Assembly: GCA_902780525.1 (NCBI GenBank)
Contig: CACZFL010000005.1
Coordinates: forward strand, 1 to 64,000
Source of the DNA: an uncultured bacterium
Lineage (GTDB): Bacteria > Cyanobacteriota > Vampirovibrionia > Gastranaerophilales > Gastranaerophilaceae
Length of the DNA: 64,000 nt
Direction of reading: 5' to 3'
Shown here: in pieces, positions 3,339 through 17,459 of the stretch
Numbering within the stretch: position 1 is the stretch's first letter
How the letters are laid out: every line of letters starts with the position of its first letter
The notes under the pieces: model-generated
Database searches by the model: none
The model's input: the letters and a program-made list of their open reading frames with translations, nothing else
What the model was told of the DNA's origin: nothing
Program-made: the position numbers and the translations under genes

Positions 3339-4361
3339 CTATTTAACAACCCAACTTTCAGCACCAAGATTTGTAAATCTAAATCTTCTGAACTCGCCAC
3401 CAAGCTTTAATAATTCTTGAGTTACTGTGTATCTTGTGTTATCTGGACAATAGAACATAAAGAAACCGCCACCACCAGCACCTGATATTTTGCCACCCGA
3501 TGCTCCTGCTTTTATTGCGGTTTCATAAATATTATCTATAACAGGATTAGAGATAGATGATGACATTTGCTTTTTGTATTTCCAGCCGTCATTCAATAAG
3601 TCACCCATTCTGTATAAATTGCCTGTAAGAAGTGCTTCTTTCATATCATAAGAATACTGTTTAATCTTATGCATTGCTTCTATTGCTTTTTCATTTTTAT
3701 TTTTAGCATTTTCTGCCTGTGATTTAATAATCTCGGCTGATAATCGGCTTGTTCCTGTGTAGTAAAGCAGCATATTTAGTTCTAACTCATTGGTATATTC
3801 TTTTCTTATTCTCAAAGGATTAACAAGAACTTTATCTCCTTTAAATTCCATAAAATTAAAACCACCAAAAGCAGCTGCATATTGGTCTTGTCTACCACCT
3901 GCCATTTTTAAATCTTCTCTTTCAATACTCCAAGCAAGATGAGCTAAATCATAATCTCCAAGAGGTAAATTAAGCCACTCTTGAAATGCTTTAACTATTG
4001 CAACAACAAGAGTTGAAGATGAACCCAAACCACTTCCTGCCGGTGCATCAACGTAAGTTGTTAAAGTAAAACCAAGAGGTTTTTTAATAAAGTCTTTTAC
4101 GAGTCTGTTATAAACACCTTTTAAAAGGTCAAACTTACCATCTATCTCAAGATATTCTTTTGAGTCAAAAACTCCTCTTTCATTTCTATCAGCACAATGA
4201 AATTCAATTTTACCATCGTCACGAGGTTCAATTGTTGCATAGGCATACATTGTTATACAAGCATTTAGAATGCAACCGCCATATAAATCACAATATGGAC
4301 TTACATCTGTTCCGCCACCTGCCAAACCAATTCTTAAGGGTGCTTTTGCTCTTATTATCAT
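3339..4361 (-). CDS. hddA: D-glycero-alpha-D-manno-heptose-7-phosphate kinase
   Basis: 340 residues, GHMP-kinase family. Visible motifs are the N-terminal strand 'IIRAKAPLRIGLAGGGTDV' (split in the family style), the ATP-binding 'PAGSGLGSSS' motif, and the C-terminal 'GGKISGAGGGGFFMF' motif. HddA phosphorylates the C1 position of heptose-7-phosphate to give the 1,7-bisphosphate in the GDP-heptose branch. The ATG lies one base downstream of the gmhA stop, with AGGAG inside the end of gmhA. It closes a three-gene operon holding all four activities needed for GDP-heptose, a precursor of surface polysaccharide or S-layer glycan. Naming HddA rather than another sugar kinase rests on motif and context. 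Confidence 0.9.
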   Translation of the reverse strand: MIIRAKAPLRIGLAGGGTDVSPYCDLYGGCILNACITMYAYATIEPRDDGKIEFHCADRNERGVFDSKEYLEIDGKFDLLKGVYNRLVKDFIKKPLGFTLTTYVDAPAGSGLGSSSTLVVAIVKAFQEWLNLPLGDYDLAHLAWSIEREDLKMAGGRQDQYAAAFGGFNFMEFKGDKVLVNPLRIRKEYTNELELNMLLYYTGTSRLSAEIIKSQAENAKNKNEKAIEAMHKIKQYSYDMKEALLTGNLYRMGDLLNDGWKYKKQMSSSISNPVIDNIYETAIKAGASGGKISGAGGGGFFMFYCPDNTRYTVTQELLKLGGEFRRFRFTNLGAESWVVK

Positions 4362-4362
4362 C

Positions 4363-4944
4363 TTAAACTCCTACTTTACTAAAAATTGCTTCTTCTACTA
4401 ATGCACAAATTATATGACCTATCATTATGTGAGACTCTTGAATTGTTGGTGTAGAAGCTGATGGTACATGGATTATATAGTCACACCATTTATCCATTTC
4501 GCATTCCTTTTGTCCGACAAAACCAACTGTTACAACTCCTTTTTTCTTTGCTTCTTCTAAAGCTAAAACAATGTTTTTTGAGTTACCCGAAGTTGAAATT
4601 CCAATGAAAACGTCACCCTCTTTTGCATTAGCTTGAATCTGTCTTGAAAAAGACTTTTCATAACCATAGTCGTTACCGATAGCCGTCAAAATTGAGGTGT
4701 CTGTCGCAAGCGAGAAGGCTGTCAATCCTGGTCTGTCAAAAAAGAACCTAGAAACCAGCTCTCCTGCTATGTGTTGAGCATCTCCAGCTGAACCACCATT
4801 ACCAGCAGTCAGAACTTTTTTATCGAGTCTGTATGCTTCGACAATTCTATCTGCTATTTTTTTTATTGTTTCTAAAATGTTCTCGTTATCTAATATACTT
4901 TGTTTTGTTGTTATAGAATCTTGAATGTATTGTCTTATATCCAT
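4363..4944 (-). CDS. gmhA: sedoheptulose-7-phosphate isomerase
   Basis: 193 residues, SIS-domain isomerase. 'LTAGNGGSAGDAQHIAGELVSRF' and 'GISTSGNSKNIVLALEEAKKKG' are the phosphosugar-binding signatures of GmhA. It converts sedoheptulose-7-phosphate to D-glycero-D-manno-heptose-7-phosphate, the first committed step of the pathway. It overlaps the upstream hddC-gmhB stop by 10 bases and abuts hddA, so translation is probably coupled. Length is normal for the family. Confidence 0.93.
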   Translation of the reverse strand: MDIRQYIQDSITTKQSILDNENILETIKKIADRIVEAYRLDKKVLTAGNGGSAGDAQHIAGELVSRFFFDRPGLTAFSLATDTSILTAIGNDYGYEKSFSRQIQANAKEGDVFIGISTSGNSKNIVLALEEAKKKGVVTVGFVGQKECEMDKWCDYIIHVPSASTPTIQESHIMIGHIICALVEEAIFSKVGV

Positions 4945-6122
4945 TGATGTTCTCCTTCTTTTATTATTTTACAGTTCAAGTAAGGTAATCGTATCTTGTC
5001 TATATCTGGATTATCACCCACCATAATAGAACGTTTAAGATCTATTTTTAATTTTTCACAAGCCTTTAATATCATACCGGGATTCGGTTTCCTTAATAGT
5101 GTATCGTAGGCATACTCTTTTATTATAGAGTCTTTATGGTAAGGACAATATTCTATGTCGTGAAAGTCAACATCGACTTTTTTGTAATACTCTCTTATTC
5201 CGTCAAATCCTTCTTGCATTTCCTCTTTTGTGAATTTCCCTTTTCCGATTCCTGCTTGATTAGTTATCATAACTATATGATAGTCTAGTGCAGCATATTG
5301 TTTTACTATATCAACAGTGTCCTCTATAATTTTAAAGTCTTTGCCATGTGGATATTCTGTATTTTCAATTAATGTTCCATCTTTATCTACAAATAAAGCC
5401 GGTTTCATTTCTTTAGCAATCCAATTAGGAACTAAATCTTGTGCTCTGTAATAATCCTCCGGTATTCCTATATCAATAAAACACCCTCCAAGTGGTAGTC
5501 CGTTCAATTCGTCATTTGCTAGAAGTTTAGGGAATATCTCTGTTTCAAGAGAGATAAACTCTCCGTTAAACTTTTTGGCATAAGGTTTTAAAGCTGATTT
5601 ATGAATATAATAAATGCCACCATTTATGTAACCATCAATCCTATTCTCAGGCAAGCTACCCTTTTCTACAAACGACTTAATTACATATTTATCATCTATT
5701 TCAACAAATCCATATCTCTCAATATTGTTTGTGTATCTTAAGGCTAGTGTAATTGGTTTGTCTTTCCCAAATCTCTCAAGTATATTGTAATCAATATCAA
5801 AGAACGTATCTCCATTGATTACAAAGAACTCATCTTGTAATTTATCAAAGGCATTAAGAATTGCACCACCAGTCCCAAGTGCTGTCTCTTCTTTGATAAA
5901 TGTTGTATTTTTTAATCGTTTAAATTGCTTTTCTATCTGCTCCGCTTTGTATCCCGTCAAGAAAACAAAATTATCAAAACCTTGTTTCTTCAAAGTTTTA
6001 ATAACAAACTCCAAGAAAGGCTTTTGTTCTCTACCTATTGGTGCAAGAGGTTTTGGAACATCAGAAACAATATGTGATAGTCTTGTCCCGAAGCCACCTG
6101 CTAATATAACAGCTTGTCTCAT
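4935..6122 (-). CDS. hddC-gmhB: heptose-1-phosphate guanylyltransferase fused to heptose-bisphosphate phosphatase
   Basis: 395 residues from the ATG at 6122, chosen because AGGAG lies eight bases upstream; an in-frame extension to 6158 lacks such a site. The first ~235 residues are a nucleotidyltransferase ('AVILAGGFGTRL...DVPKPLAPIG', 'FVINGDTFFDID'). The last ~155 are a HAD phosphatase ('FVDKDGTLI', 'ITNQAGIGKG', 'RKPNPGMI', 'MVGDNPDID'). The GmhB half keeps 'CPYH', but the usual Cys-x-Cys just before RKP is replaced by DTLL, so the zinc site looks incomplete. The fusion supplies steps 3 and 4 of GDP-heptose synthesis. It is the first gene of the operon. Confidence 0.9.
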   Translation of the reverse strand: MRQAVILAGGFGTRLSHIVSDVPKPLAPIGREQKPFLEFVIKTLKKQGFDNFVFLTGYKAEQIEKQFKRLKNTTFIKEETALGTGGAILNAFDKLQDEFFVINGDTFFDIDYNILERFGKDKPITLALRYTNNIERYGFVEIDDKYVIKSFVEKGSLPENRIDGYINGGIYYIHKSALKPYAKKFNGEFISLETEIFPKLLANDELNGLPLGGCFIDIGIPEDYYRAQDLVPNWIAKEMKPALFVDKDGTLIENTEYPHGKDFKIIEDTVDIVKQYAALDYHIVMITNQAGIGKGKFTKEEMQEGFDGIREYYKKVDVDFHDIEYCPYHKDSIIKEYAYDTLLRKPNPGMILKACEKLKIDLKRSIMVGDNPDIDKIRLPYLNCKIIKEGEHQWI

Positions 6123-6229
6123 TAAATACTCCTGTGTCGATAATTCTAATGTTATCATGAAAGCAACTAAAGTTTTGCAAAAATTTTTTCACGCATATAT
6201 CATGTAAGAAATCGTTTTGGGAGAGAACA

Positions 6230-6442
6230 ATGATTAAATATTCAAAGTTAAAGGAATCAATGGAAGTTCCTTGTATGGTATGTGGCAATGAGTCAAATAT
6301 TGTCTTTGTAAAAAAGATGCAACACTCAGATAAAAATACATTTTACGTTTGTGAGAAATGCTTTAAAAGTTTTAAGTCAGATATGCAAAGTGGTAAATTT
6401 AAAGAATATAAAGGTGAGGATTTAAGTCTACTTTTTAAATAA
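6230..6442 (+). CDS. small zinc-ribbon protein
   Basis: 70 residues, GGGAGAG before the ATG. Two Cys pairs, 'PCMVCGN' and 'YVCEKCFKSF', are separated by about 24 residues, a typical zinc-ribbon arrangement. The last eight bases overlap the convergent end of the leftward transposition operon. It could be a small DNA- or RNA-binding accessory protein of the element. Specific function unknown. Confidence 0.7.
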   Translation: MIKYSKLKESMEVPCMVCGNESNIVFVKKMQHSDKNTFYVCEKCFKSFKSDMQSGKFKEYKGEDLSLLFK

Positions 6443-7979
6443 AACCGAGAGGTTTAAATAGATCAAAATCGTTCTCTAAATTTTGAGGGAATAAGTGGTG
6501 GAATTGAACATAAAAAGTGTGGATACTACTATACCCCATTTCCTTTGCAATAAGGTTCATTGGCACGTGTTGGCTTTGTAAGAGCATAATATGTGCGTAT
6601 AAACAGCTCTCAAAGTTAGGCATTTTTATTTGTCCAAATATAAAGCCTGTCTTGTTTCTATCGACTTTATTTAGTAGATATTGAGGCATCTTTACTACTT
6701 TAACTTGCTTACGTTTAAAATATGCCAACTTGCCATGCATATATCGTCTGTTTATTGAAATTGTTGATTGTTCAAAATCAATATCTTCATACTGTATAGC
6801 TTGTAGTTCAGTTAATTTTAATCCTAATGCTATAACCCAAACTTCAGGACCATCTTTTTTTATTAACTCTTTAACCTCTTTTAAAGTGTAAATTGTAGCC
6901 GAATTAGTTAAGTTTTCATATATGTCATATTGTAATTGAAAACCGCACACCCTAAGTATTATTATTAATAACCCGACAAGTGCTTTAACTGTAGCAAAGC
7001 ACACACCCTTTGTCATAAGGTACTTTCTAAATTTAACTATTTCCTCTTGGATTATTTCACCTAATTTATATCCTTTAAAATACTCTTTCAGCTTTTCAAT
7101 GTTTCGCTTTTTATTATTTGCTACTGTATAACTTATATCATTGTCGACTATCATTTTCCAATATTTGTTCGCAGCATCTTCAAATAATATATTCTGAGGT
7201 TTTTGTTTGCGTTTGCGAGTTGTTGTTTCAGATGACGCCTCCTGTGTTATAGGTGTTCTGAATTTTTTAATAGCCTCTTTTGAATATTCGTGTTTTAACC
7301 TATGTATAAAAGTTGGAAGTGTCGGAATAGAATCACTCTCGTAACCTTTCAGTTTTAATAATTCATAGGCTTGCTCTTGAGTATATTGTTTTGGTGATAA
7401 ATAAATCTTTTTGAAATCTTCATAGACTTTATTATCAATTGTACAGAGTTTACTTTGATATAAACCAGGAAGACCTTCTTCAATGTATCGTTTGTATTTT
7501 ATTTTATACCATTGAGCATTCATTTTATATTCAGGGAAATCTTTTGCAATTCTGCCGAGAAATATTTTTGCTTCGGCGTGTGACATATCTCCTGCGAGGT
7601 TGAATAAAACAACGTGTTTAATTAATAATTGTTTCATTCTTTCATCACATTTATTGTAATAATCCAAGTCCCTCTTTTTAGTGAAAACTTGCTCGGCAGG
7701 GAATTCTCTAAAATTATCTAAGTTGAATAACTGATTTTCGGATAAAGTAAAATTGGTTTCTACTTTTACTTTTTGAGTGTTTAGTTTTCTTTTTAGTTTG
7801 TTGCTGTTTGTTTTTTCGTACAAATACTCATCTTTTGATATCTTATGAACAACTTGCTCATCTACAAATTTTTCAACATACGGAATAAGCTCTGATGTGT
7901 CACATTCCATATAAGTTGATAAATCTTCTAGTGAAAATCTTTTCAAGATGTTCATAATTTTTAAAATTTTTTGTTCCAT
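6435..7979 (-). CDS. MuA-like DNA-binding arm plus inactive tyrosine-recombinase-like protein, copy 2
   Basis: 514 residues, a clear tandem paralogue of the next gene upstream. Layout: a small winged-helix-like N-terminus (1-55). Residues ~115-242 include 'IYLSPKQYTQEQAYELLKLKGYESDSIPTLPTFIHRL', which parallels the end-binding helices of MuA. An integrase core-binding-like helical region follows (~265-345), then a tyrosine-recombinase catalytic fold (~363-498). The catalytic signature is degraded: the first Arg is K388 ('GLKLTE'), the HxxR box is absent ('ESCL'), and the position of the nucleophilic Tyr is F493 ('TFYVQFHHLFP'). It is therefore likely a DNA-binding, not a strand-cutting, protein. 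Its ATG directly follows the TAA of copy 1. Last gene of the operon. Confidence 0.75.
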   Translation of the reverse strand: MEQKILKIMNILKRFSLEDLSTYMECDTSELIPYVEKFVDEQVVHKISKDEYLYEKTNSNKLKRKLNTQKVKVETNFTLSENQLFNLDNFREFPAEQVFTKKRDLDYYNKCDERMKQLLIKHVVLFNLAGDMSHAEAKIFLGRIAKDFPEYKMNAQWYKIKYKRYIEEGLPGLYQSKLCTIDNKVYEDFKKIYLSPKQYTQEQAYELLKLKGYESDSIPTLPTFIHRLKHEYSKEAIKKFRTPITQEASSETTTRKRKQKPQNILFEDAANKYWKMIVDNDISYTVANNKKRNIEKLKEYFKGYKLGEIIQEEIVKFRKYLMTKGVCFATVKALVGLLIIILRVCGFQLQYDIYENLTNSATIYTLKEVKELIKKDGPEVWVIALGLKLTELQAIQYEDIDFEQSTISINRRYMHGKLAYFKRKQVKVVKMPQYLLNKVDRNKTGFIFGQIKMPNFESCLYAHIMLLQSQHVPMNLIAKEMGYSSIHTFYVQFHHLFPQNLENDFDLFKPLGFI

Positions 7980-9563
7980 TTAAATATTCCTTTCTTTTGT
8001 TTTAGTTGGTTTTTCAACAATGCCAAGAGGTTTAAAAATATCAAAATTATCATCCATCTCTTTAGGAAAAAGTTGATGGAATTGAGAATAAAATGTTTTT
8101 AAGTCCTTATACCTCATTTCCTTTGCAATTAGATGGAATGGTACATTTTGGTCTTGCAATAATTTTATATGGGTACATAGGCAACTTTCGTATGTAGGCA
8201 TTTCTACTTGCCCAAATATAAGTCCTGTTTTGTTCTTATCAATATTGTTTAGTAATAGATTGGGGATTTTAATTGATTTAACAGACTTAACATTGTATTT
8301 TATTATTCTTCCCCTTTGGTAGCGTTTATTGATTAAAACTACCTTTTTTTCGTGGTCTATATCTTCATACTGTAATACCTGAAGTTCTGTTAGTTTTAAT
8401 CCGAGAGCTATTATCCAAGCTTCTGGACCACATTGTTTAACTATATCTTTTATTTCCTCATACGAATAAATTTTATAAGATGTTAGAACAATATCAAAAA
8501 TACTTGCATCAAGATTAACTCTATTTATTTTAAGAATCTCTAGTAATAAAAGAATGATTCCTCTTACTGTACTAATACACCATCCCTCTGCAATAAGTTT
8601 CTTTCTGTATTCTACAATTTCCTCTATCGATATATCTCTTAGTTCATATTTCCCGAAATATTTATTCAGATTTGAGATATTTCGTTTTTTCTCTGGTCTA
8701 ATTTGTATTTTATTTAGAGCAATTATATGTAAATACTCTTTTACAGCATTTTTAAATAACGTATCTTTAGCACATTCTACATACTTAAGAGTCACTACAT
8801 CATCAGAATATTCCTCTTTTTTGATTTCGGATCTAAATCTTTCAATAGCTTCCTTAGAAAATTCACTATTAAGACGATGCATAAATGCCATAAGACTCGG
8901 CAGTAAATCACTGTCAAAACCTTTCATTTTTAATAATTCATAAACTACAGTAGCGGAATATCGTTTAGGAGTTAAATACATTTTTTTAAATTCTTCGTAT
9001 GCTGCATTATCAACACTACAGAGTCTGTTTTGATACAAACTACACAAACCACCTTCACGATATCGTTTATATTTTTCCATGTACCATTTATCGTTAATTT
9101 TATATTCAGGATGTTCCTCTGCAATTTTATTAAGATACAATTTAGTTTCCGCCTCAGACCTGCGACCAACCAAGCTGAATAGAACCACATTTTTAATCAA
9201 ATACTTTTTCATTCTCTCATCGGAGTTGTTATAATACTCCAAATCTTCCTTCTGAAGAAAAACTTGCTCGGCAGGAAAATTCCTGAAATTTTCAAGATTA
9301 AATAACTGATTTCCTAATACTGAATAATTAAAATATTTTTTTTCGTTATCTTCTTTTTTTCTTCTTATTCTTCTTCGGGGTTTTACTCGATTGACATTCT
9401 CATATAAATAATTATTGTTAGGCAATTTAGTTATAGCAGCATTCTCCTCAAGGTCTTTAAGATAAGGAGTAATTTCACTTGCATCGCACTCCATATATGT
9501 TGATAAATCATCTATAGAGAAATTTTTTAAAATGCTTGCTATTTTTAAAATTTTCTTTTCCAC
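7980..9563 (-). CDS. MuA-like DNA-binding arm plus inactive tyrosine-recombinase-like protein, copy 1
   Basis: 527 residues, starting at a GTG (9561-9563) immediately after the TAA of the ATPase gene; GGAG lies inside that gene's end. Domains match copy 2: winged-helix-like 1-55, MuA-like helices ~118-245 ('MYLTPKRYSATVVYELLKMKG...LPSLMAFMHRL'), core-binding-like ~268-348, recombinase-like ~366-500. Catalytic residues are replaced: K390 for the first Arg, 'ESCL' for HxxR, F495 for Tyr. The central Lys hairpin ('NVKSVKSIKIP') survives. Because this gene and copy 2 follow a transposase and its ATPase, a role in target choice, end recognition or immunity is the most natural inference. I know of no described family with this architecture. 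Confidence 0.75.
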   Translation of the reverse strand: MEKKILKIASILKNFSIDDLSTYMECDASEITPYLKDLEENAAITKLPNNNYLYENVNRVKPRRRIRRKKEDNEKKYFNYSVLGNQLFNLENFRNFPAEQVFLQKEDLEYYNNSDERMKKYLIKNVVLFSLVGRRSEAETKLYLNKIAEEHPEYKINDKWYMEKYKRYREGGLCSLYQNRLCSVDNAAYEEFKKMYLTPKRYSATVVYELLKMKGFDSDLLPSLMAFMHRLNSEFSKEAIERFRSEIKKEEYSDDVVTLKYVECAKDTLFKNAVKEYLHIIALNKIQIRPEKKRNISNLNKYFGKYELRDISIEEIVEYRKKLIAEGWCISTVRGIILLLLEILKINRVNLDASIFDIVLTSYKIYSYEEIKDIVKQCGPEAWIIALGLKLTELQVLQYEDIDHEKKVVLINKRYQRGRIIKYNVKSVKSIKIPNLLLNNIDKNKTGLIFGQVEMPTYESCLCTHIKLLQDQNVPFHLIAKEMRYKDLKTFYSQFHQLFPKEMDDNFDIFKPLGIVEKPTKTKERNI

Positions 9564-10295
9564 TTAAATATTTTTCTCCTTTGTCTGATTCGGTTCTGTT
9601 AAATCCTTTTCTACAGCTATAATTTCTTTTAGAGTTGTTTCATCTATTGAATTTAATCCGTTTGATTTTGCAAAGTTTTCTGCCTTATTAATTATTTTTA
9701 CAAGCTGCCTGAATCGGTTTACACTCTTGTAAAGACATTGCATTGCACAGTCGGTAAACTCTATTTCTGATAGTTCTCCAACAATAGTTTTAATATCCCC
9801 TTTACTAAATGGTTCAAACCGCACAATTTCAGAAATTCTGTCATAAAGGTGTTTGTATTTTTTGAGTTTAGAGTTTGCACTATTCATACCAACCAAAATA
9901 ATAGGGACATTCGTTCTATCGTGAATGTCCCTTATTGTTTCGACTGCCTTTGCATCCATCATCAGGTAATCAATTTCGTCTACAATTATCGGTTTTGGAT
10001 CCATCATCAAATTTTTAATTATTATATTAAAGCAATCGAAAATTCTTCTTGGTGCATATTCGCCCATTGCCTCTAATATTTCTGAAAGCAGCCATTTTGT
10101 AGACATCAGGTTGTTACACCTTACAAGATAAATATCATTTTTAAAAGCCCACCAGTTAATTGTTTGTGTTTTACCTAATCCCGGCTCCCCATAGACTAAA
10201 CCTAGCCCTGGCACTCCCTCTGCTCGTTCAAGCAGATTATTATACATACTTATAAATCGCTTGACGTTATTTGTTTTTACGAATACTTTTTTCAT
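9564..10295 (-). CDS. MuB-like transposition ATPase
   Basis: 243 residues, AAA+ ATPase of the MuB/TniB/TnsC type. Walker A is 'GEPGLGKT' (36-43), Walker B 'PIIVDEID' with D106 and E107, and a sensor-like 'ILVGMNSANSKLKK' follows. MuB-type proteins bind target DNA and activate the transposase in an ATP-dependent way. The transposase stop codon (10307) lies in the ribosome-binding site of this gene (GATAGAAAGGAG), so the two are translationally coupled. It lacks the long N-terminal HTH of phage Mu MuB and is shorter, closer to TniB-size proteins. Confidence 0.9.
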   Translation of the reverse strand: MKKVFVKTNNVKRFISMYNNLLERAEGVPGLGLVYGEPGLGKTQTINWWAFKNDIYLVRCNNLMSTKWLLSEILEAMGEYAPRRIFDCFNIIIKNLMMDPKPIIVDEIDYLMMDAKAVETIRDIHDRTNVPIILVGMNSANSKLKKYKHLYDRISEIVRFEPFSKGDIKTIVGELSEIEFTDCAMQCLYKSVNRFRQLVKIINKAENFAKSNGLNSIDETTLKEIIAVEKDLTEPNQTKEKNI

Positions 10296-10306: not shown

Positions 10307-12400
10307 CTATCCGTATATTGTCTTGTATTCACTTGATTGAATGTAATTTTTCAGCCACTCACGATCATCATTATTTATGCAGCCATTCTGCATATGCCAT
10401 TCGTATCGTTCGTAGTTATTAGCAAATGTTGGTCGATTTACGATTGAAGTTTTGATTTTCGGTCTGAATAATTGTTCTTTTTCTTCCTGTGGTTTAACAG
10501 TTACTTCATTTGTTTCAATAATTTCATCGTTTTTATTCGGTAATTCGACCTCAATTAATTCTCTTTCTATTAAATCTATGTCATTTAAATTGAAGTGCTG
10601 CTTAACAGCTTTTATTGTTTTTCTTCTTAACCGAGCTTGTTTTTCAATTTTGTGCTTGTAGTCTTCTATATCTTTAATATCTCCCATTTGAACGGCAAGC
10701 GGATGAGTTGGGGTAACTCTGTCTGCTCGGCATAAAAACTCACCTTTCATTGTGTAAACCTTGATATAGGTTAAATCGAATAAATTGTATTTAATGATGG
10801 CTTTTTCTTTTAATCCGTATAAAGCTTCGTCAAAATAGTCAGCTTTCAGGAAGTGGATTCCGTTTCTTCCTATTGTTTTTACTTCCTGTGCCATCATCAG
10901 GTCATCGAGTTCATTTTCATCAATTTTTTGTCTTGATGTTTCATTAATTACTTCTTGAATTGTTTTACCTTCATCATTGGGACAGGGTTGTGCGTGTTTG
11001 TATTCAAGCCATTTATTAATTAATGTTATTGCTTGTTCTATTGTTGGGGTAAATTCGTATTTTTCGTGGATTTGAGAATGTAGTTTTTCATTTCGTTTCA
11101 TCCATGCCGGCTTTTTCTCTATACTTGTACCGATATAGCTTGGCATTAGTTTTTCAAATCCCTCTTGAAAATCTAAAAAGAAACGCTCGATGACTTTAGC
11201 ACGAGCGTTATAAGGAGTCGCATAAACTGGTCTTATACCCAGTTTCTCGTAGATACCGGTAAAGCCAAGTTCTTCAAACTTTTTATCTCCGTTAAAGAAC
11301 TTACTTTTGAAAGCTCTGCCGTTATCTTGGTAAATGTAATCTGGAATGTGGTCTAGATTTAAAATTGCGTTACGAAGAGCTGATGCAATATTTTGCGTAC
11401 ATTCTTCGAGCATAATATCATATCCGACAAGTCCGCCTGATTTCCAATCTAAAAAACCGAGCAATGTAGCTCGGCAGGGTTTACCAGTGAACGGATTAAT
11501 TACTTGAAAGTTTAGTGTATGACCATCTGCGATTAATACTTGCCCAGGTTCTAAAAGTGATGCGTTTCTTACAATAAATGGTTCGACTTTATCCTTTAAT
11601 GCTTTTTGACCTTCTCTGGCAAGAGTCCATTTATCAAAATTCGTATCCCTGAACCAATAAGCATATCTTCTGAATGTGACATCTTTGGGGAGAATGTCAT
11701 ATCCTCTTTCTTTTAATATATGTTTTGTTAAACTAATTGCTTTTCCGACCGAGAAGTTATTCGGGGATAAAAGTATGTTTAAAAAGATTTTAATCTGTTC
11801 TTCATTTAGCGAAGTGCTATATTCTTTTCTTGTTGTGTATTTATACTGCGGAACAAGGGCAGTCCAATCACGATTGTATCCGAGTAGTCTTTTCCATCGG
11901 TATAAGGATCCTTCACAAACTTTTCCAATTACATTAAAAATGTTTTCATACAACATTCCCGAATTATACATTTCAACAAATTTCTGATTTATTGTTTGAC
12001 CTGATTCATCAAACTTGTTCTTTTTGCATTCTCTTCTAAAATCGAGCCAGAAGTTAACTAAATCATATTTGGCGAGTGCTTGCTCTTTCTGACTTTCTGA
12101 TATCAGCTTGTCTTGTTTGATTTTTAAATTACTTAATTCAATTACCTCGGAATCTGATGCGTTTATCTCTTCCAGATATTCTTCAATATATTTCTTTTGT
12201 AGCTCTACCTCTAACGTGCTTAATCTTATTTTATAACTGTATCCGCCTCTGCACTTTTCAGTTTTACATTCGTACTTATCATTGTTTAATGACATTCTAA
12301 CTGCTCTTTTAGATACGTTTTTTAAACGTGCAACAGTTTCAACATCCACCCATATTTCTTCCGTCTTAATGTCATTTAGGTCTATTTTTGCCTTGCTCAT
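10307..12400 (-). CDS. MuA-like DDE transposase
   Basis: 697 residues from the ATG at 12400, chosen for AGGAG nine bases upstream; the longer frame would use a TTG at 12427. N-terminal winged helix 'IWVDVETVARLKNVSKRAVRMSL' with the Mu-type 'RGGYSYKIRLSTLEVELQ' follow-up; Mu end-binding helices around 185-255; RNase H-fold core with D292 ('IADGH'), D359 ('YQDNGRAF') and E405 ('KVIERFF'); Mu C-terminal beta-barrel ('IGRNGIHFLKADYF...IIKYNLFDLTYIKVYTMKGEFLC'). All three catalytic residues are present, so it should be active in strand transfer. First gene of the A-B-like operon; upstream DNA holds motif repeats that may be its binding sites. Confidence 0.93.
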   Translation of the reverse strand: MSKAKIDLNDIKTEEIWVDVETVARLKNVSKRAVRMSLNNDKYECKTEKCRGGYSYKIRLSTLEVELQKKYIEEYLEEINASDSEVIELSNLKIKQDKLISESQKEQALAKYDLVNFWLDFRRECKKNKFDESGQTINQKFVEMYNSGMLYENIFNVIGKVCEGSLYRWKRLLGYNRDWTALVPQYKYTTRKEYSTSLNEEQIKIFLNILLSPNNFSVGKAISLTKHILKERGYDILPKDVTFRRYAYWFRDTNFDKWTLAREGQKALKDKVEPFIVRNASLLEPGQVLIADGHTLNFQVINPFTGKPCRATLLGFLDWKSGGLVGYDIMLEECTQNIASALRNAILNLDHIPDYIYQDNGRAFKSKFFNGDKKFEELGFTGIYEKLGIRPVYATPYNARAKVIERFFLDFQEGFEKLMPSYIGTSIEKKPAWMKRNEKLHSQIHEKYEFTPTIEQAITLINKWLEYKHAQPCPNDEGKTIQEVINETSRQKIDENELDDLMMAQEVKTIGRNGIHFLKADYFDEALYGLKEKAIIKYNLFDLTYIKVYTMKGEFLCRADRVTPTHPLAVQMGDIKDIEDYKHKIEKQARLRRKTIKAVKQHFNLNDIDLIERELIEVELPNKNDEIIETNEVTVKPQEEKEQLFRPKIKTSIVNRPTFANNYERYEWHMQNGCINNDDREWLKNYIQSSEYKTIYG

Positions 12401-12448
12401 TGCCAATTCTCCTATGTCGCTACTCAATGTTAACTCGTATTTTTAAAA

Positions 12449-12617
12449 AGTGTCGCTTTTTAGGAGGAAGTGTGTCGTTTTGTGTCTGAAGAAGTAATTG
12501 AAAATAAAAAATTTATTACTTTCAATTACCTCAAAAATGAATTTTCAATTACCTCGACACACAACTTTACAGAAAAAGGCAATAAGAAAACAAAGATATT
12601 AAAAAGAGCTTCCTCCT
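12449..12617. repeat. transposase-operon upstream region: inverted repeats and TTTCAATTACCTC motifs
   Basis: The 270-base gap between the transposase and the next gene contains three copies of a 13-base motif: inverted at 12491-12503, direct at 12520-12532 and 12543-12555. They are enclosed by TGTGTCG (12471-12477) and its inverse CGACACA (12555-12561). A wider inverted pair is AGGAGGAAG (12462-12470) with CTTCCTCCT (12609-12617). GTGTC occurs three times (12450, 12472, 12482). This could be a transposon terminus, an operator for the operon, or both. A frame running rightward through it (12470-12661) is not judged a gene. Confidence 0.6.
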
Positions 12618-12696
12618 ACCCTATTTTTATACAAACAGATATCATTAACAGACAAAATTAAAAAAGTGTAGAGTAGTTTTAAAAAAAGGAATATAA

Positions 12697-13224
12697 TTAG
12701 AAATTCAAACCTTGTTGGAAACGAGAACTTATAGGTTCGTTAATTTCAATAAAGTCCATAGTTTGTTCAACTGTATTTTGGTTGAAATACCATTGTAAAA
12801 ATAATAAATCTTTATATTTCATATAGTGGTGATAACCAAATGTTCTTCTCCATGATTCTACTGAAATACTGTAAAGACCTAGTTCTGCTGCTACATCTTT
12901 AAAGTTTACATAAAAATAATATCTTGATGTTTTTCCTTTGTTCTTTCTTGAGAAAGCTAGGTCAGTTGGTTCTTTATCTTTGGTTACTATTGAGATTAAA
13001 TCAATCATCTCATCTGACAGTAAGTATGTAATGCCTTTTGCTACTTGAATATATTTTTTATTTTTTACTTGTGAAACTTTCATCTCAAATAAAGTTGTCA
13101 TCTTTAAACCTGTGTTGATAACAAGTAAAAACATTAAAAGGTCAAGATAAAGCTCTTTCTCTCTGTATTTTTGCTTTATTCTTTCTATATCTTCTACACT
13201 TTTTATCGGTGATGTTTTTATCAT
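12697..13224 (-). CDS. catalytically degraded tyrosine-recombinase-like protein
   Basis: 175 residues, length of an isolated integrase catalytic domain. 'INTGLKMTTLFEMKVSQV' matches the first-Arg box with K41 for Arg; 'SVESWRRTFGYHHY' matches the HxLRxT box with R126 kept but Glu for the first His; 'FNQN' has Gln where His or Trp is expected; 'TMDFIEI' has F158 where the Tyr nucleophile belongs. So three to four of the active-site residues are lost, as in the two downstream chimeras. No good Shine-Dalgarno is visible. A 16-base palindrome lies upstream (13258-13273). Repeat motifs flank the gene on both sides, which suggests the protein binds DNA there. Unlikely to be an active integrase. Confidence 0.75.
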   Translation of the reverse strand: MIKTSPIKSVEDIERIKQKYREKELYLDLLMFLLVINTGLKMTTLFEMKVSQVKNKKYIQVAKGITYLLSDEMIDLISIVTKDKEPTDLAFSRKNKGKTSRYYFYVNFKDVAAELGLYSISVESWRRTFGYHHYMKYKDLLFLQWYFNQNTVEQTMDFIEINEPISSRFQQGLNF

Positions 13225-13257
13225 AATAAAAGTATTTTAACACGAAATATATAAATT

Positions 13258-13273
13258 TTGTGAAACTTCACAA
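13258..13273. promoter_or_regulatory. palindromic operator candidate
   Basis: TTGTGAA-AC-TTCACAA is a perfect inverted repeat with a two-base centre, 34 bases upstream of the start of the recombinase-like gene. Between them lies an AT-rich stretch suited to a promoter. A dimeric repressor site is inferred. Confidence 0.4.
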
Positions 13274-13278
13274 CTTTT

Positions 13279-13591
13279 TTTCAATTACCTCATTTTTCCG
13301 GAACCATTTTAATCGGAAATAAGGCGGAAAATATCGTTATTTTTGAAAGATAAACACTTCCGAGAAATAGGCGGAAGTAACTTTTGAGGTAATTGAAAAG
13401 TCCGTTTCGCATCCGCAGGTATAATCCGCACTATATTTGAGTTTGAGGGAAAATCCGGCGGATTTATAGCGGACTTTCAGGTAATCGAAAACGGAAAAAA
13501 CGGCTTCAATTACACGTCTTAAAACAAAATGGGGGAAGTGCCTCTCTTTTAGTAAACATCGGGGTTACACACACAAATTTTCAATTACCTA
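13279..13591. repeat. noncoding array of TTTCAATTACCTC motifs
   Basis: This 360-base gap has no gene. Motif copies are 13279-13291 (direct), 13386-13398 (inverted), 13478-13490 (inverted, two changes), 13505-13513 (direct, shortened) and 13579-13591 (direct, one change). A second motif pairs 13313-13332 with 13360-13379 (both contain AAATA-(A)-GGCGGAA). The stretch 13300-13520 is richer in CG dinucleotides than its surroundings. With the three copies at 12491-12555 this makes eight sites around one gene. Iterons, transposase ends or regulator sites are all possible. Confidence 0.65.
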
Positions 13592-13923
13592 AGTTTTAAT
13601 TTGTCCTGTCTAGTTATATCAGGTTCGTCAGGTATAATTTCATAAGTCATACAATTAATATTACTAAGTTCATTTTGCTTTTCGTTTAGTTTTTTAATTT
13701 CTTGTTTTATATTAGATAGTTCATCATCTTTTTGCGTAATTTCTTTAGATTTTTTATTATTTGAAATTTTCAATTTATATGCAAGATTTGCTAAATATAT
13801 TATAAATAAAAATAAAGCAAGTCCTATTGCTAATCCAATTCTATATTCTAAAGGAAACTCCACTAAAGCTAAACAAGATAGAGTTTCTGTTATTAATAAT
13901 CCTATAAACCATCCTAAATTCAT
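13585..13923 (-). CDS. small membrane protein with coiled-coil tail
   Basis: 112 residues, AAAGGAG upstream of the ATG. Two hydrophobic segments (about 5-22 and 28-50) are followed by a Lys/Glu-rich coiled-coil ('SKEITQKDDELSNIKQEIKKLNEKQNELSN') and a short polar tail. The topology would leave the coiled coil on one face of the membrane. Resembles small spanin- or toxin-like accessory proteins of mobile elements only in general layout. Function unknown. Its stop overlaps the last repeat motif. Confidence 0.65.
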   Translation of the reverse strand: MNLGWFIGLLITETLSCLALVEFPLEYRIGLAIGLALFLFIIYLANLAYKLKISNNKKSKEITQKDDELSNIKQEIKKLNEKQNELSNINCMTYEIIPDEPDITRQDKLKLR

Positions 13924-14305: not shown

Positions 14306-15148
14306 TTAACATACGGCGCAATTAGGGATAATAGATTTATTTGAAATAAACATTATTTCTTTACCCTTTTTATTTTTTCCGGCAGAGTAACTAATGTTGA
14401 ATTCTATAGGGTTTTCAACAAAATTATACAGGTTGATAATCTCTGGTACATTATCATAACTCACAATCCACTGACCTTTTAATTTTTTTACTATATCTGC
14501 TATTTTCGCATGATCATCTTTTTTATAATGATTATTATACAATTGATAACCCTTATTAAAGTATGGAGGATCAAGATATAGTAAGCATTTTTCAAAATAT
14601 TTACTATGTTTCTTTAATAATAACAATGTATCTTCATTATAAAGTTTTATAGAATTTTTATATTCTGCAATTTTCAAAATTCTTTCTATGAGTTCTACCT
14701 TATTAAATCTTGCATCTATTTTCCAATTTCCTAATTGTTGCTTACCACCAATAGGACCACCTTTAATAATGCCTGAATAATTACATCTATTAAGAAAAAA
14801 TGTTGCAAACCCAATATCAATTATAGAATGATTTTGCATATTATTATAAATATTTTTCTGAAGTTCCCAAGAATCGATAGTTATGGGCATTTGTTCTATA
14901 TATTCAATAAAATCATTAGTACATTCTAATATGGATTTCCAAAAACAATAAATACCGTAATCATTATCATTTATATATATTTTTTTAGCGTAACCATCAA
15001 TTAACAAAGAAAGTGCTACAGATGCCCCTCCTGCATATGGCTCGACATATACGGGAGGCTCATTATAGTTCAATTCTATAAATTTTTTCATAAAATTGAT
15101 AATTTTAGCTTTTCCGCCTGGATATCTTAATGGTGAATAATGTTTCAT
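14306..15148 (-). CDS. D12-class DNA N6-adenine methyltransferase
   Basis: 280 residues. 'SPLRYPGGKAKI' (5-16) is the family N-terminus, 'VEPYAGGASV' (35-44) the SAM-binding motif and 'LDPPY' (192-196) the catalytic motif IV. The Dam/DpnM group methylates adenine, often in GATC; specificity cannot be read here. It lies 40 bases downstream of the ATPase/Toprim gene on the same strand, so the pair is probably one operon. It may protect host DNA from a partner nuclease or be a solitary phage-type methylase. Confidence 0.9.
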   Translation of the reverse strand: MKHYSPLRYPGGKAKIINFMKKFIELNYNEPPVYVEPYAGGASVALSLLIDGYAKKIYINDNDYGIYCFWKSILECTNDFIEYIEQMPITIDSWELQKNIYNNMQNHSIIDIGFATFFLNRCNYSGIIKGGPIGGKQQLGNWKIDARFNKVELIERILKIAEYKNSIKLYNEDTLLLLKKHSKYFEKCLLYLDPPYFNKGYQLYNNHYKKDDHAKIADIVKKLKGQWIVSYDNVPEIINLYNFVENPIEFNISYSAGKNKKGKEIMFISNKSIIPNCAVC

Positions 15149-15188
15149 AATTGCACTATAACATAGAATATGATGTTTTTCCAGATTA

Positions 15189-16763
15189 TTAAGGGAGTTC
15201 TTCTATACCTTTTCTTTTCGCAATATGATTATAGGCTTTTTTAAAATCCTGCAAAAATTTTTCTACTAAATCAGTATTTTCAGCTTTCCAATATTTGTAT
15301 ATATTACTATCTTCAAATAATTCTTTATGAGTTTTAAACCACTCTTTGTATTTATCTCTTTCCTTTATAGAACCGTCATTTGATAAATCATGTTCTCTAA
15401 AATATTCAATTTTTACTTTTGCATTCTTTTTGTTTTCTTCTTCAAAATAAAGCTTTGACTTATCTGAATGTATAAAGTCATATAATAATTTTTCTGGAGA
15501 ACATAGAGCGCCTGAGTATGTTGGTAATTTGATATAGTTACTTTTACAATTTTTTATTCTCTTTTCATCTGTTGTTTTTAAGTCTCCATCAAAAACTACA
15601 AGATACTCTTTAAATATTGGCTCAGAATTCATTAAATCAATTATACACTGGCAACCAATGGAAACATTTCTATATTCCAATTTTCTAACATTGCCCTCTA
15701 TTAATTTTTTTAGTAACCACCTATTTTCTTCATCTTCTGTATACACAACAATTTTGTTACTAGTGTTGTTTCGGTGATACAAAGAAACCAATAAGTCTTC
15801 TTCAATATTTTTAAAATCATAATTTTCATAAACCATCAACTCATTATTAACATTTGTAAAATAATAATGTTTTAAATTTTGATTATTTACACTATTTTTT
15901 TCGCAAAATTTTCTAATTATAGTTAAACTGTGAGTTGTAAATAGAATCTGTATATTAGAACTACGAGCTTCTTTTATAAATAAATCAAGTAATTTTTCTT
16001 GAGCTTTAGGGTGCAATGAAGCTTCCAATTCATCTATTATTAATAATCCTCCCTTATAAACTTCTCCCATATCTCTCTTTAATTTTTTAAAAGAAAGCAA
16101 AGAAAGTAGTATTTGTCCCAAATTATCTTGACCGGAGGAATTTGTTTTCCAATCATACTTTTCAGTGTTTACTCCCGACATTTTTTTACTTGTTGACTTT
16201 AAACTAACATCTGATACCTCGGTAATGATGTCATTATTTGACAATATTTCCATATGGTTACTAGTAAACCATTCTTTATCTTGGTCATTCTCAAAATTTA
16301 AACTTTCATCTGAAATAAATTTGTCATCAATTTCACCAATTGGATATAAGCGAGATAATCCTAAATATATAACAGGAAACTCAAATTTTGCTTCTGTTAT
16401 ACCCCCAGCTTCAAGTTTTTCTTTTGGTATTACTCTATATCTTGTATTTCCTTCTTGCCAAGCAGTTCTGAATGTTTTTATTCTTGTCTTATTATTATCA
16501 ACATGAGTAATTTGTAGTTTATCACTTTCTGATGGATCAAATTGCAAACTACCTTTTAATATTTCACTAAACTCTGCTTTGAACCGCTTACCATTATATG
16601 TAAGACCTTGATCTTTCTTCAATTCTGTAGAGTTTGCCATTAGTGCTAAAATTGTTGATTTACCTGTAGCATTCCAGCCGGCAAACATCGTAACGTACTG
16701 TCCTAAATTAAAAGTTTGATTTTCAATAGCTCTAAATCTATTAATCTTTATTTGTGTAAACAT
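15189..16763 (-). CDS. OLD-like ATPase with Toprim-type C-terminus
   Basis: 524 residues. An ABC-type ATPase domain has Walker A 'GWNATGKST' (29-37), an 'SSGQDNLGQILLSLL' signature, Walker B 'GGLLIIDELEASLHP' and the 'FTTHS' switch His. The C-terminal part carries 'IVVYTEDEENRWLLKKLI' and 'YLVVFDGDL', the Glu and DxD positions of a Toprim nuclease, though the usual Gly after the Glu is missing. OLD-family nucleases (Gabija GajA, retron-linked and P2 Old proteins) act in phage defence. Coupled with an adenine methylase it may form a two-gene defence module. Nuclease activity is inferred. Confidence 0.75.
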   Translation of the reverse strand: MFTQIKINRFRAIENQTFNLGQYVTMFAGWNATGKSTILALMANSTELKKDQGLTYNGKRFKAEFSEILKGSLQFDPSESDKLQITHVDNNKTRIKTFRTAWQEGNTRYRVIPKEKLEAGGITEAKFEFPVIYLGLSRLYPIGEIDDKFISDESLNFENDQDKEWFTSNHMEILSNNDIITEVSDVSLKSTSKKMSGVNTEKYDWKTNSSGQDNLGQILLSLLSFKKLKRDMGEVYKGGLLIIDELEASLHPKAQEKLLDLFIKEARSSNIQILFTTHSLTIIRKFCEKNSVNNQNLKHYYFTNVNNELMVYENYDFKNIEEDLLVSLYHRNNTSNKIVVYTEDEENRWLLKKLIEGNVRKLEYRNVSIGCQCIIDLMNSEPIFKEYLVVFDGDLKTTDEKRIKNCKSNYIKLPTYSGALCSPEKLLYDFIHSDKSKLYFEEENKKNAKVKIEYFREHDLSNDGSIKERDKYKEWFKTHKELFEDSNIYKYWKAENTDLVEKFLQDFKKAYNHIAKRKGIEELP

Positions 16764-17062: not shown

Positions 17063-17459
17063 TGGTGGAGATGGCGGGAGTCGAACCCGCGTCCGATGCG
17101 GATACAAACTGACATCTACGAGTGTAGTAACTTATTCGCTCAATCTGAAAAGGAAAGTTACAAAACCTGATTCAGACCAAAGACTTTTTAACGGAAGCCT
17201 AACCTCCAATGGTAAACTTGATACGCATACCATCATTTGCGTACTGCGTCTTGCATGCGGTCGTTCAATTCTTAACGGCAAGCTGGTTAAGATGAACGGG
17301 CTGAACTGCTTAATTAAGCAGCGAGTCTTCTAGCTCTGAAATCAGCCATAGAAACAACGTTGTTGTCATCTAATTTGTTTTGCCCGTTGATAACCGAGAA
17401 CAGCTCTCGGACTCGCAATCCGGATATACCAATCACAACGTCAAAGCCGGTGCATCCCC
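17063..17459 (-). ncRNA. ssrA: transfer-messenger RNA
   Basis: A 397-nt one-piece tmRNA. The 5' end GGGGATGCACCGG (17459 leftward) pairs with the 3' acceptor arm; the 3' end reads CGGGTTCGACTCCCGCC..., then CACCA encoded in DNA (17063). The tag frame covers 17370-17314 and encodes DDNNVVSMADFRARRLAA then TAA; two to five residues may precede, as I cannot fix the resume codon. The 'ARRLAA' end is a typical ClpXP degron, and clpX and clpP lie just upstream on the same strand. It marks the right boundary of the accessory region. Part of its 5' end is duplicated at 17601-17621. Confidence 0.93.

Follow-up and report, generated by a model that had tools for sequence, protein, structure and literature searches.

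What is the function of two neighbouring proteins that join the DNA-binding domain of a Mu-type transposase to a tyrosine recombinase stripped of its active-site residues? Both are encoded in the window, the 64,000-nucleotide stretch of DNA that was analysed, where, as the earlier note had claimed, two tandem ORFs occupy positions 6435-9563. C1 (7980..9563, minus strand) encodes 527 amino acids from a GTG start and, judging by its ORF, family membership, gene order and structure model, is the first copy of the third protein of a Mu-type operon. C2 (6435..7979, minus strand) is a second tandem copy of 514 amino acids that is 51% identical to C1 and has the same domain order. Both are intact ORFs in line with the genes for a 243-amino-acid TniB/MuB-like AAA+ ATPase (9564..10295, minus strand; Pfam TniB 2.6e-5, AAA_22 2.6e-16; phrog_296 DNA transposition protein 2e-48) and a 706-amino-acid MuA-like DDE transposase (10307..12427, minus strand; phrog_310 2e-95; Mu-transpos_C 1.6e-13). 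C1 and C2 would be a duplicated third core protein in a Mu-type transposon whose gene order is MuA, TniB, third protein.

Sequences, profiles and structures all point to one domain order. Residues 1-60 of C1 (9384..9563, minus strand) form a MarR-like winged helix, which gives a VIA Z of about 10 over residues 1-66 and matches a phage winged helix by hhalign (E 4e-10). The corresponding part of C2 is located at 7800-7979 (minus strand). This domain, which is the most widely shared part of the third-protein family and is common to most third-gene types, had been missed in the earlier note. A MuA-type Ibeta/Igamma DNA-binding domain follows at residues 101-244 (8832..9263, minus strand; C2, about 7257-7688, minus strand), close to the predicted residues 115-245, and is supported by hhalign, BLASTP and Foldseek. 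The family profile aligns over C1 101-244 with Mu2, another Mu transposase family that the same genomes carry (Pfam DDE_2), at E 9e-27 and 149 columns, and the best PDB match to the N-terminal half of the AlphaFold model is the Mu transpososome 4fcy (Foldseek E 2.3e-3, prob 1.00, 149 columns). Thus, the domain resembles the Mu transposase DNA-binding domain in both sequence and structure. Pfam HTH_Tnp_Mu_2 reaches only E 0.04 on C2 176-236, and other family members score above the Pfam cut-off for the MuA-type domain (L016, 2e-5).

The C-terminal half belongs to the tyrosine-recombinase fold superfamily, with both a core-binding domain and a catalytic fold. The core-binding (SAM-like) domain, at about residues 265-350 of C1 (8514..8771, minus strand; C2, about 6930-7184, minus strand), is matched by Pfam Phage_int_SAM_3 (3e-5 on C2, 0.14 on C1) and by integrase SAM-like domains (VIA, Z about 9). 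The catalytic fold, at about residues 360-515 (8019..8486, minus strand; C2, about 6450-6893, minus strand), was expected at about 365-500, and the C1 model (mean pLDDT 79) matches the Tn1549 integrase over residues 267-515 (Z 13.2, 230 residues, rmsd 9.0) and, in the catalytic fold, the HP1 integrase (Z 13.0, 145 residues, rmsd 4.8). The recombinase part also matches the phrog_1 integrase (8.7e-11), and the family profile matches PDB integrases (1.5e-11). As previously noticed, both C1 and C2 carry K in place of the first Arg, F in place of the Tyr and no HxxR box, where they read ExxL. Pfam finds no DDE catalytic domain (rve, DDE_2, Mu-transpos_C), TniQ domain (PF06527) or zinc-finger family in either protein, and a tblastn search of phage records with C1 found no match. 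The anatomy described in the earlier note is thus confirmed, with the winged helix in addition, and is general; its interpretation is supported in part.

The family was delimited by scanning genome contigs with a TniB alignment, which yielded 80 loci, nearly all in Gastranaerophilales MAGs. The earlier note had proposed a search beside MuA/MuB-like genes as a test of conservation; a family member directly follows MuA and TniB in every one of the 80 loci with enough sequence, and the family is widespread among gut bacteria. Five architectures occur. Type A, as in the window, consists of winged helix, Ibeta/gamma, core-binding domain and catalytic fold. In type B (414 amino acids), the winged helix is joined to a complete Ialpha-beta-gamma domain of MuA type and an unassigned C-terminus; type C has a winged helix and Ibeta/gamma; type D has a winged helix and core-binding domain only, and a terminase-small/DUF1804-like gene then follows; and type E has a winged helix and recombinase. 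At this gene position, diverse Mu-like viral contigs have a winged helix of roughly 100 amino acids, phrog_2030, which is homologous to the C1 N-terminus (hhalign 4e-10). Because the architectures vary around the winged helix and Mu-like phages carry a homologue at this position, it looks ancestral, with the other domains added later.

Among 292 genomes sampled from the phylum, near full-length matches to type A come from the window's family and one in the same order. A full-length structural match in BFVD (543 amino acids, E 3e-19) is A0A8S5LZ18 of Siphoviridae sp. ctCsv15, so a member of the family is already public, annotated only as an integrase. The earlier note regarded C1 and C2 as a pair that is kept. 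The pair is present, but tandem pairs are a minority, with a single third gene at most loci, and they occur in three separate places of the tree (the window/L024 clade, L033 and L019). Pairing is a recurrent local duplication and not the family's basic unit.

TniB and its third-gene neighbour are swapped jointly, against a left end and a MuA that hardly vary. When pairs of loci have MuA proteins more than 93% identical, their TniB proteins are 96% identical if the third type is the same (n=133) and 60% identical if it differs (n=109). The partial rank correlation between TniB and the third protein given MuA is 0.40 (0.61 for types A and B only), and 0/999 permutations gave a value as high, whereas that between MuA and the third protein given TniB is 0.04. 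For example, L040 (type A) and L053 (type B) share 90-96% nucleotide identity in the 800 bp upstream of MuA and 80-91% through MuA, but identity drops to 55-66% over TniB and to about 40% over the third gene. Because TniB identity tracks the third gene at constant MuA, the third protein groups with the target-side ATPase rather than with the ends, promoter or transposase. One caveat is that the TniB gene and the third gene are neighbours, and mere linkage could be partly responsible for this pattern.

These observations suggest that the third protein is probably an insertion-site (target-selection) factor that partners the MuB-like ATPase TniB. The protein may bind DNA through up to three modules, namely the winged helix, the MuA-type Ibeta/Igamma domain and the inactivated tyrosine-recombinase domain. 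It would itself bind the target and contact TniB, and the two together would choose the insertion site, the job of TniQ, TnsD or TnsF in Tn7-like elements. The C1 and C2 pair might form a heteromer or serve as two related selectors. No TniQ was found in the window's genome, family and class by a search in which 11/48 other members of the phylum exceeded the cut-off as a control; a further search found TniQ in 0/54 relatives, with a control that was silent.

The main rival is that the third protein represses or otherwise regulates the transposon operon, with a dead recombinase fold as the regulator and the winged helix as an ancestral Mu-phage regulator. MrpR/YopR of the Bacillus phage SPbeta is a master repressor with a tyrosine-recombinase fold (PMC10516654) and without recombinase activity, and the structure comparison picked up both MrpR/YopR and SroF (Z about 9.6). 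Moreover, the gene at the same position in Mu-like phages, which holds only the winged helix of roughly 100 amino acids, is called a transcriptional regulator in PHROGs, and this also counts against target selection. However, the region upstream of MuA is constant while the third gene changes, as in L040 and L053, the third gene co-varies with TniB and not with MuA, and it is located at the end of the operon. A regulatory role is therefore disfavoured, and we consider it unlikely.

The MuA-type domain had been said to share its pattern with the transposase next door. That origin was rejected: similarity of the C1 and C2 segments to the adjacent MuA is weak (BLASTP E 2.5 and 0.46), and Mu2 matches instead (8e-9 and 6e-11). 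Across third proteins, BLASTP values against Mu2 go down to 1.5e-26. Mu2 is found in many genomes that carry the third-gene family, and at several loci (G061:C8, G071:C1, G062:C3, G066:C10, L016, L021 and L106) a Mu2 operon shares the strand of a Mu1-like operon and is located just downstream of it. Plausibly, the third protein arose when a small winged-helix gene fused with the part of a neighbouring Mu2 gene that encodes the DNA-binding domain.

The closeness to Mu2, and its presence in many of the same genomes, would also be expected if the third protein blocked a competitor by occupying Mu2 ends and preventing Mu2 transposition. This is improbable, because the winged helix, the recombinase domain and the joint exchange with TniB would be left unexplained, and the same-strand Mu2 operons directly downstream suggest partnership or common origin, not conflict.

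The left end of the window's element, TATAACTAGACAGGACAAATTAAAA (13594..13618, minus strand), has 2 mismatches to the left-end consensus (nhmmer E 5.5e-12) and is located inside the 3' end of a gene at 13585-13923. The left end region contains seven clustered copies of the motif TTTTCAATTACCTC (12491..13591, unstranded), at 12491, 12519, 12542, 13278, 13386, 13478 and 13578, which are candidate transposase-binding repeats. The window as a whole has 34 matches to this motif against 19.9 expected, a number reached in 0/100 shuffles. Between the left end and MuA is also a gene for a small stand-alone recombinase-domain protein of 175 amino acids (12697..13224, minus strand; Pfam Phage_integrase 1.1e-7; phrog_216 4e-20), whose active site, read by eye, is missing. 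It was not seen between the left end and MuA in relatives; relatives of the protein are found elsewhere, at L061 3634-4218 and L091 11269-11814. Because the contig begins at window position 1, no right end was found for the window's element.

Other features lie near this element and its relatives. Heptose biosynthesis genes (3339-6158), possible cargo, come after the C1 and C2 pair and are also found in L009/L025. Next to the left end, 14306-16763 encodes a Dam-type methyltransferase (PADLOC PD-Lambda-5_B, 2.5e-112) and an OLD-like ATPase, and is probably a neighbouring defence island beside the tmRNA (17063-17459). In two element groups, direct repeats TTTCCTGTAAAAAAGTGTAA, possibly protein-binding sites, occur right after the third gene (L028 12209-12300 and L040 12215-12310).

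The earlier note proposed a target or end factor. The target-side role fits best, and the end role is disfavoured, because near-identical left ends and MuA proteins occur with very different third proteins. A MuA-type end-binding fold joined to an integrase fold could belong to an accessory end-binding or synapsis factor, or to a degenerate cointegrate resolvase, that acts at the element's own ends. Yet third proteins diverge to 24-36% identity while ends and MuA are nearly constant, and no member has resolvase chemistry, which leaves such a role with little likelihood.

A complete R-H-R-Y set occurs in 0/45 recombinase-bearing family members, and none of the observations that the earlier note named as refuting its reading was found. 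The third genes tested have group dN/dS values of 0.04-0.15, which correspond to purifying selection; together with the absence of a complete catalytic set, these values indicate that the proteins are functional but lack recombinase chemistry. That they are divergent yet active tyrosine recombinases or integrases is highly improbable: most of the 45 members keep the Tyr, and type E members (L023, L087) keep R2, H2 and Y, but the first Arg is replaced in 43 and kept in 2, the HxxR His is kept in 0/45, and both window copies have F for Tyr.

Left ends were located from similarity breakpoints, and 10/33 either have another family end no more than 400 bp away or abut a (partial) one (binomial p 9e-12 versus random positions in the same loci). 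In the six L-L or partial-L cases with readable orientation, the orientation is the same in 6/6. L057 lies inside a resident right end with a 5-bp target duplication, TAAAA, and L056 lies next to one with the 5-bp duplication GTCTA; at L053 and L061, target duplications did not match. The clustering of left ends and the positions of L057 and L056 make insertion clearly non-random. The resident family ends, or something beside them, may be what the third protein recognises, and that this protein causes the non-random insertion is our inference. End-directed insertion does not require the recombinase domain, since elements of type B show it as well as those of type A; the same observation counts against a target selector, since MuA and TniB alone might cause it.

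A further point against target selection comes from L055, a fully mapped insertion whose site is an integrase gene rather than a family end. Its element, about 19.8 kb long, interrupts a tyrosine-integrase gene, with both ends present and a 5-bp duplication, CTGTA. A simple target-duplication search with TATA-type right ends had given only chance hits, and the interrupted integrase of L055 gave the solution. Right ends read TGTAGATTATCAGAGAG inward. A fixed attachment site was rejected, as the left flanks have no common sequence: the mapped flanks differ mutually, with resident family ends as well as an integrase gene among them.

Right ends are serial, with up to five in 4.4 kb. A repeat of ~178 bp (CTATATACACAAACTCTTAAAACTGCC...), which is not an Rfam family, occurs up to about five times per genome (L187/L228, L194, L030, L062, L189 and L190), and in about 17/28 copies a right end is located 26-189 bp upstream, always in the same orientation. 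Some copies are split after base 34 by about 90-130 bp. A tRNA target, at first suggested by the repeat's likeness to the 3' end of a tRNA, was rejected because neither ARAGORN nor Rfam detects a tRNA there; tRNA-Asn is near right ends in three genomes only. L228 2085-6370 contains serial small units of repeat, one or two genes and right end, which resemble a cassette array.

The third proteins may be a previously undescribed family of target selectors, serving Mu-type transposons free of TniQ, that is exchanged as a TniB-plus-selector cassette, is composed of a Mu-phage winged helix, a Mu2 DNA-binding domain and a dead integrase, and steers insertions into or beside the resident ends of relatives, resulting in same-orientation arrays. 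We hold this fuller proposal tentatively, as slightly short of an even chance. If it is true, inactivated tyrosine recombinases have been recruited for target choice outside Tn7-like, TniQ-dependent elements. Also, nearly constant transposases and ends with different TniB-selector cassettes would be a natural set in which modular retargeting of Mu-type elements is directly testable, and such insertion could explain the build-up of defence and surface-sugar islands in Gastranaerophilales genomes.

Several known systems share part of this arrangement. The phrog_2030 protein is likewise a third gene product after MuA and MuB with a homologous winged helix, but it has only about 100 amino acids and neither a MuA-type nor a recombinase domain. 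MrpR/YopR (SPbeta) and SroF (phi3T) have, like C1 and C2, a catalytically dead tyrosine-recombinase fold, which in their case is used as a sequence-specific DNA-binding protein. In contrast to C1 and C2, MrpR/YopR has no MuA-type domain and no transposase neighbours. TniQ and TnsD (Tn7, Tn5053/Tn402) are, like the third protein, third components beside a TniA/TnsB-type transposase and a TniB/TnsC ATPase, and have modular DNA-binding parts, whereas C1 and C2 have no TniQ domain match and TniQ was not found in these genomes.

The earlier note knew of no such described family, which is too strong a statement, because TnsF is a described target selector derived from an inactivated tyrosine recombinase (PMC10293859). 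Experiments identified comM as the site that TnsF of Tn6022 selects in concert with TniQ (Faure et al. 2023, PMC10293859); the protein combines zinc fingers with two core-binding domains and part of a catalytic domain, and it binds TniQ (PMC10293859). Like C1 and C2, it is transposon-encoded, has about 500 amino acids and an inactivated tyrosine-recombinase domain, and is located beside TnsB/TnsC-type genes. Unlike TnsF, C1 and C2 have a winged helix, which the model places at the N-terminus, and a MuA-type domain in place of zinc fingers, as well as one core-binding domain and, in the model, a complete catalytic fold. They also belong to MuA/TniB-type machinery, in a clade where TniQ was not found and with no fixed site found. 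The principle of a dead tyrosine-recombinase selector is thus already known, whereas the architecture, the Mu-type setting and the absence of TniQ appear to be new.
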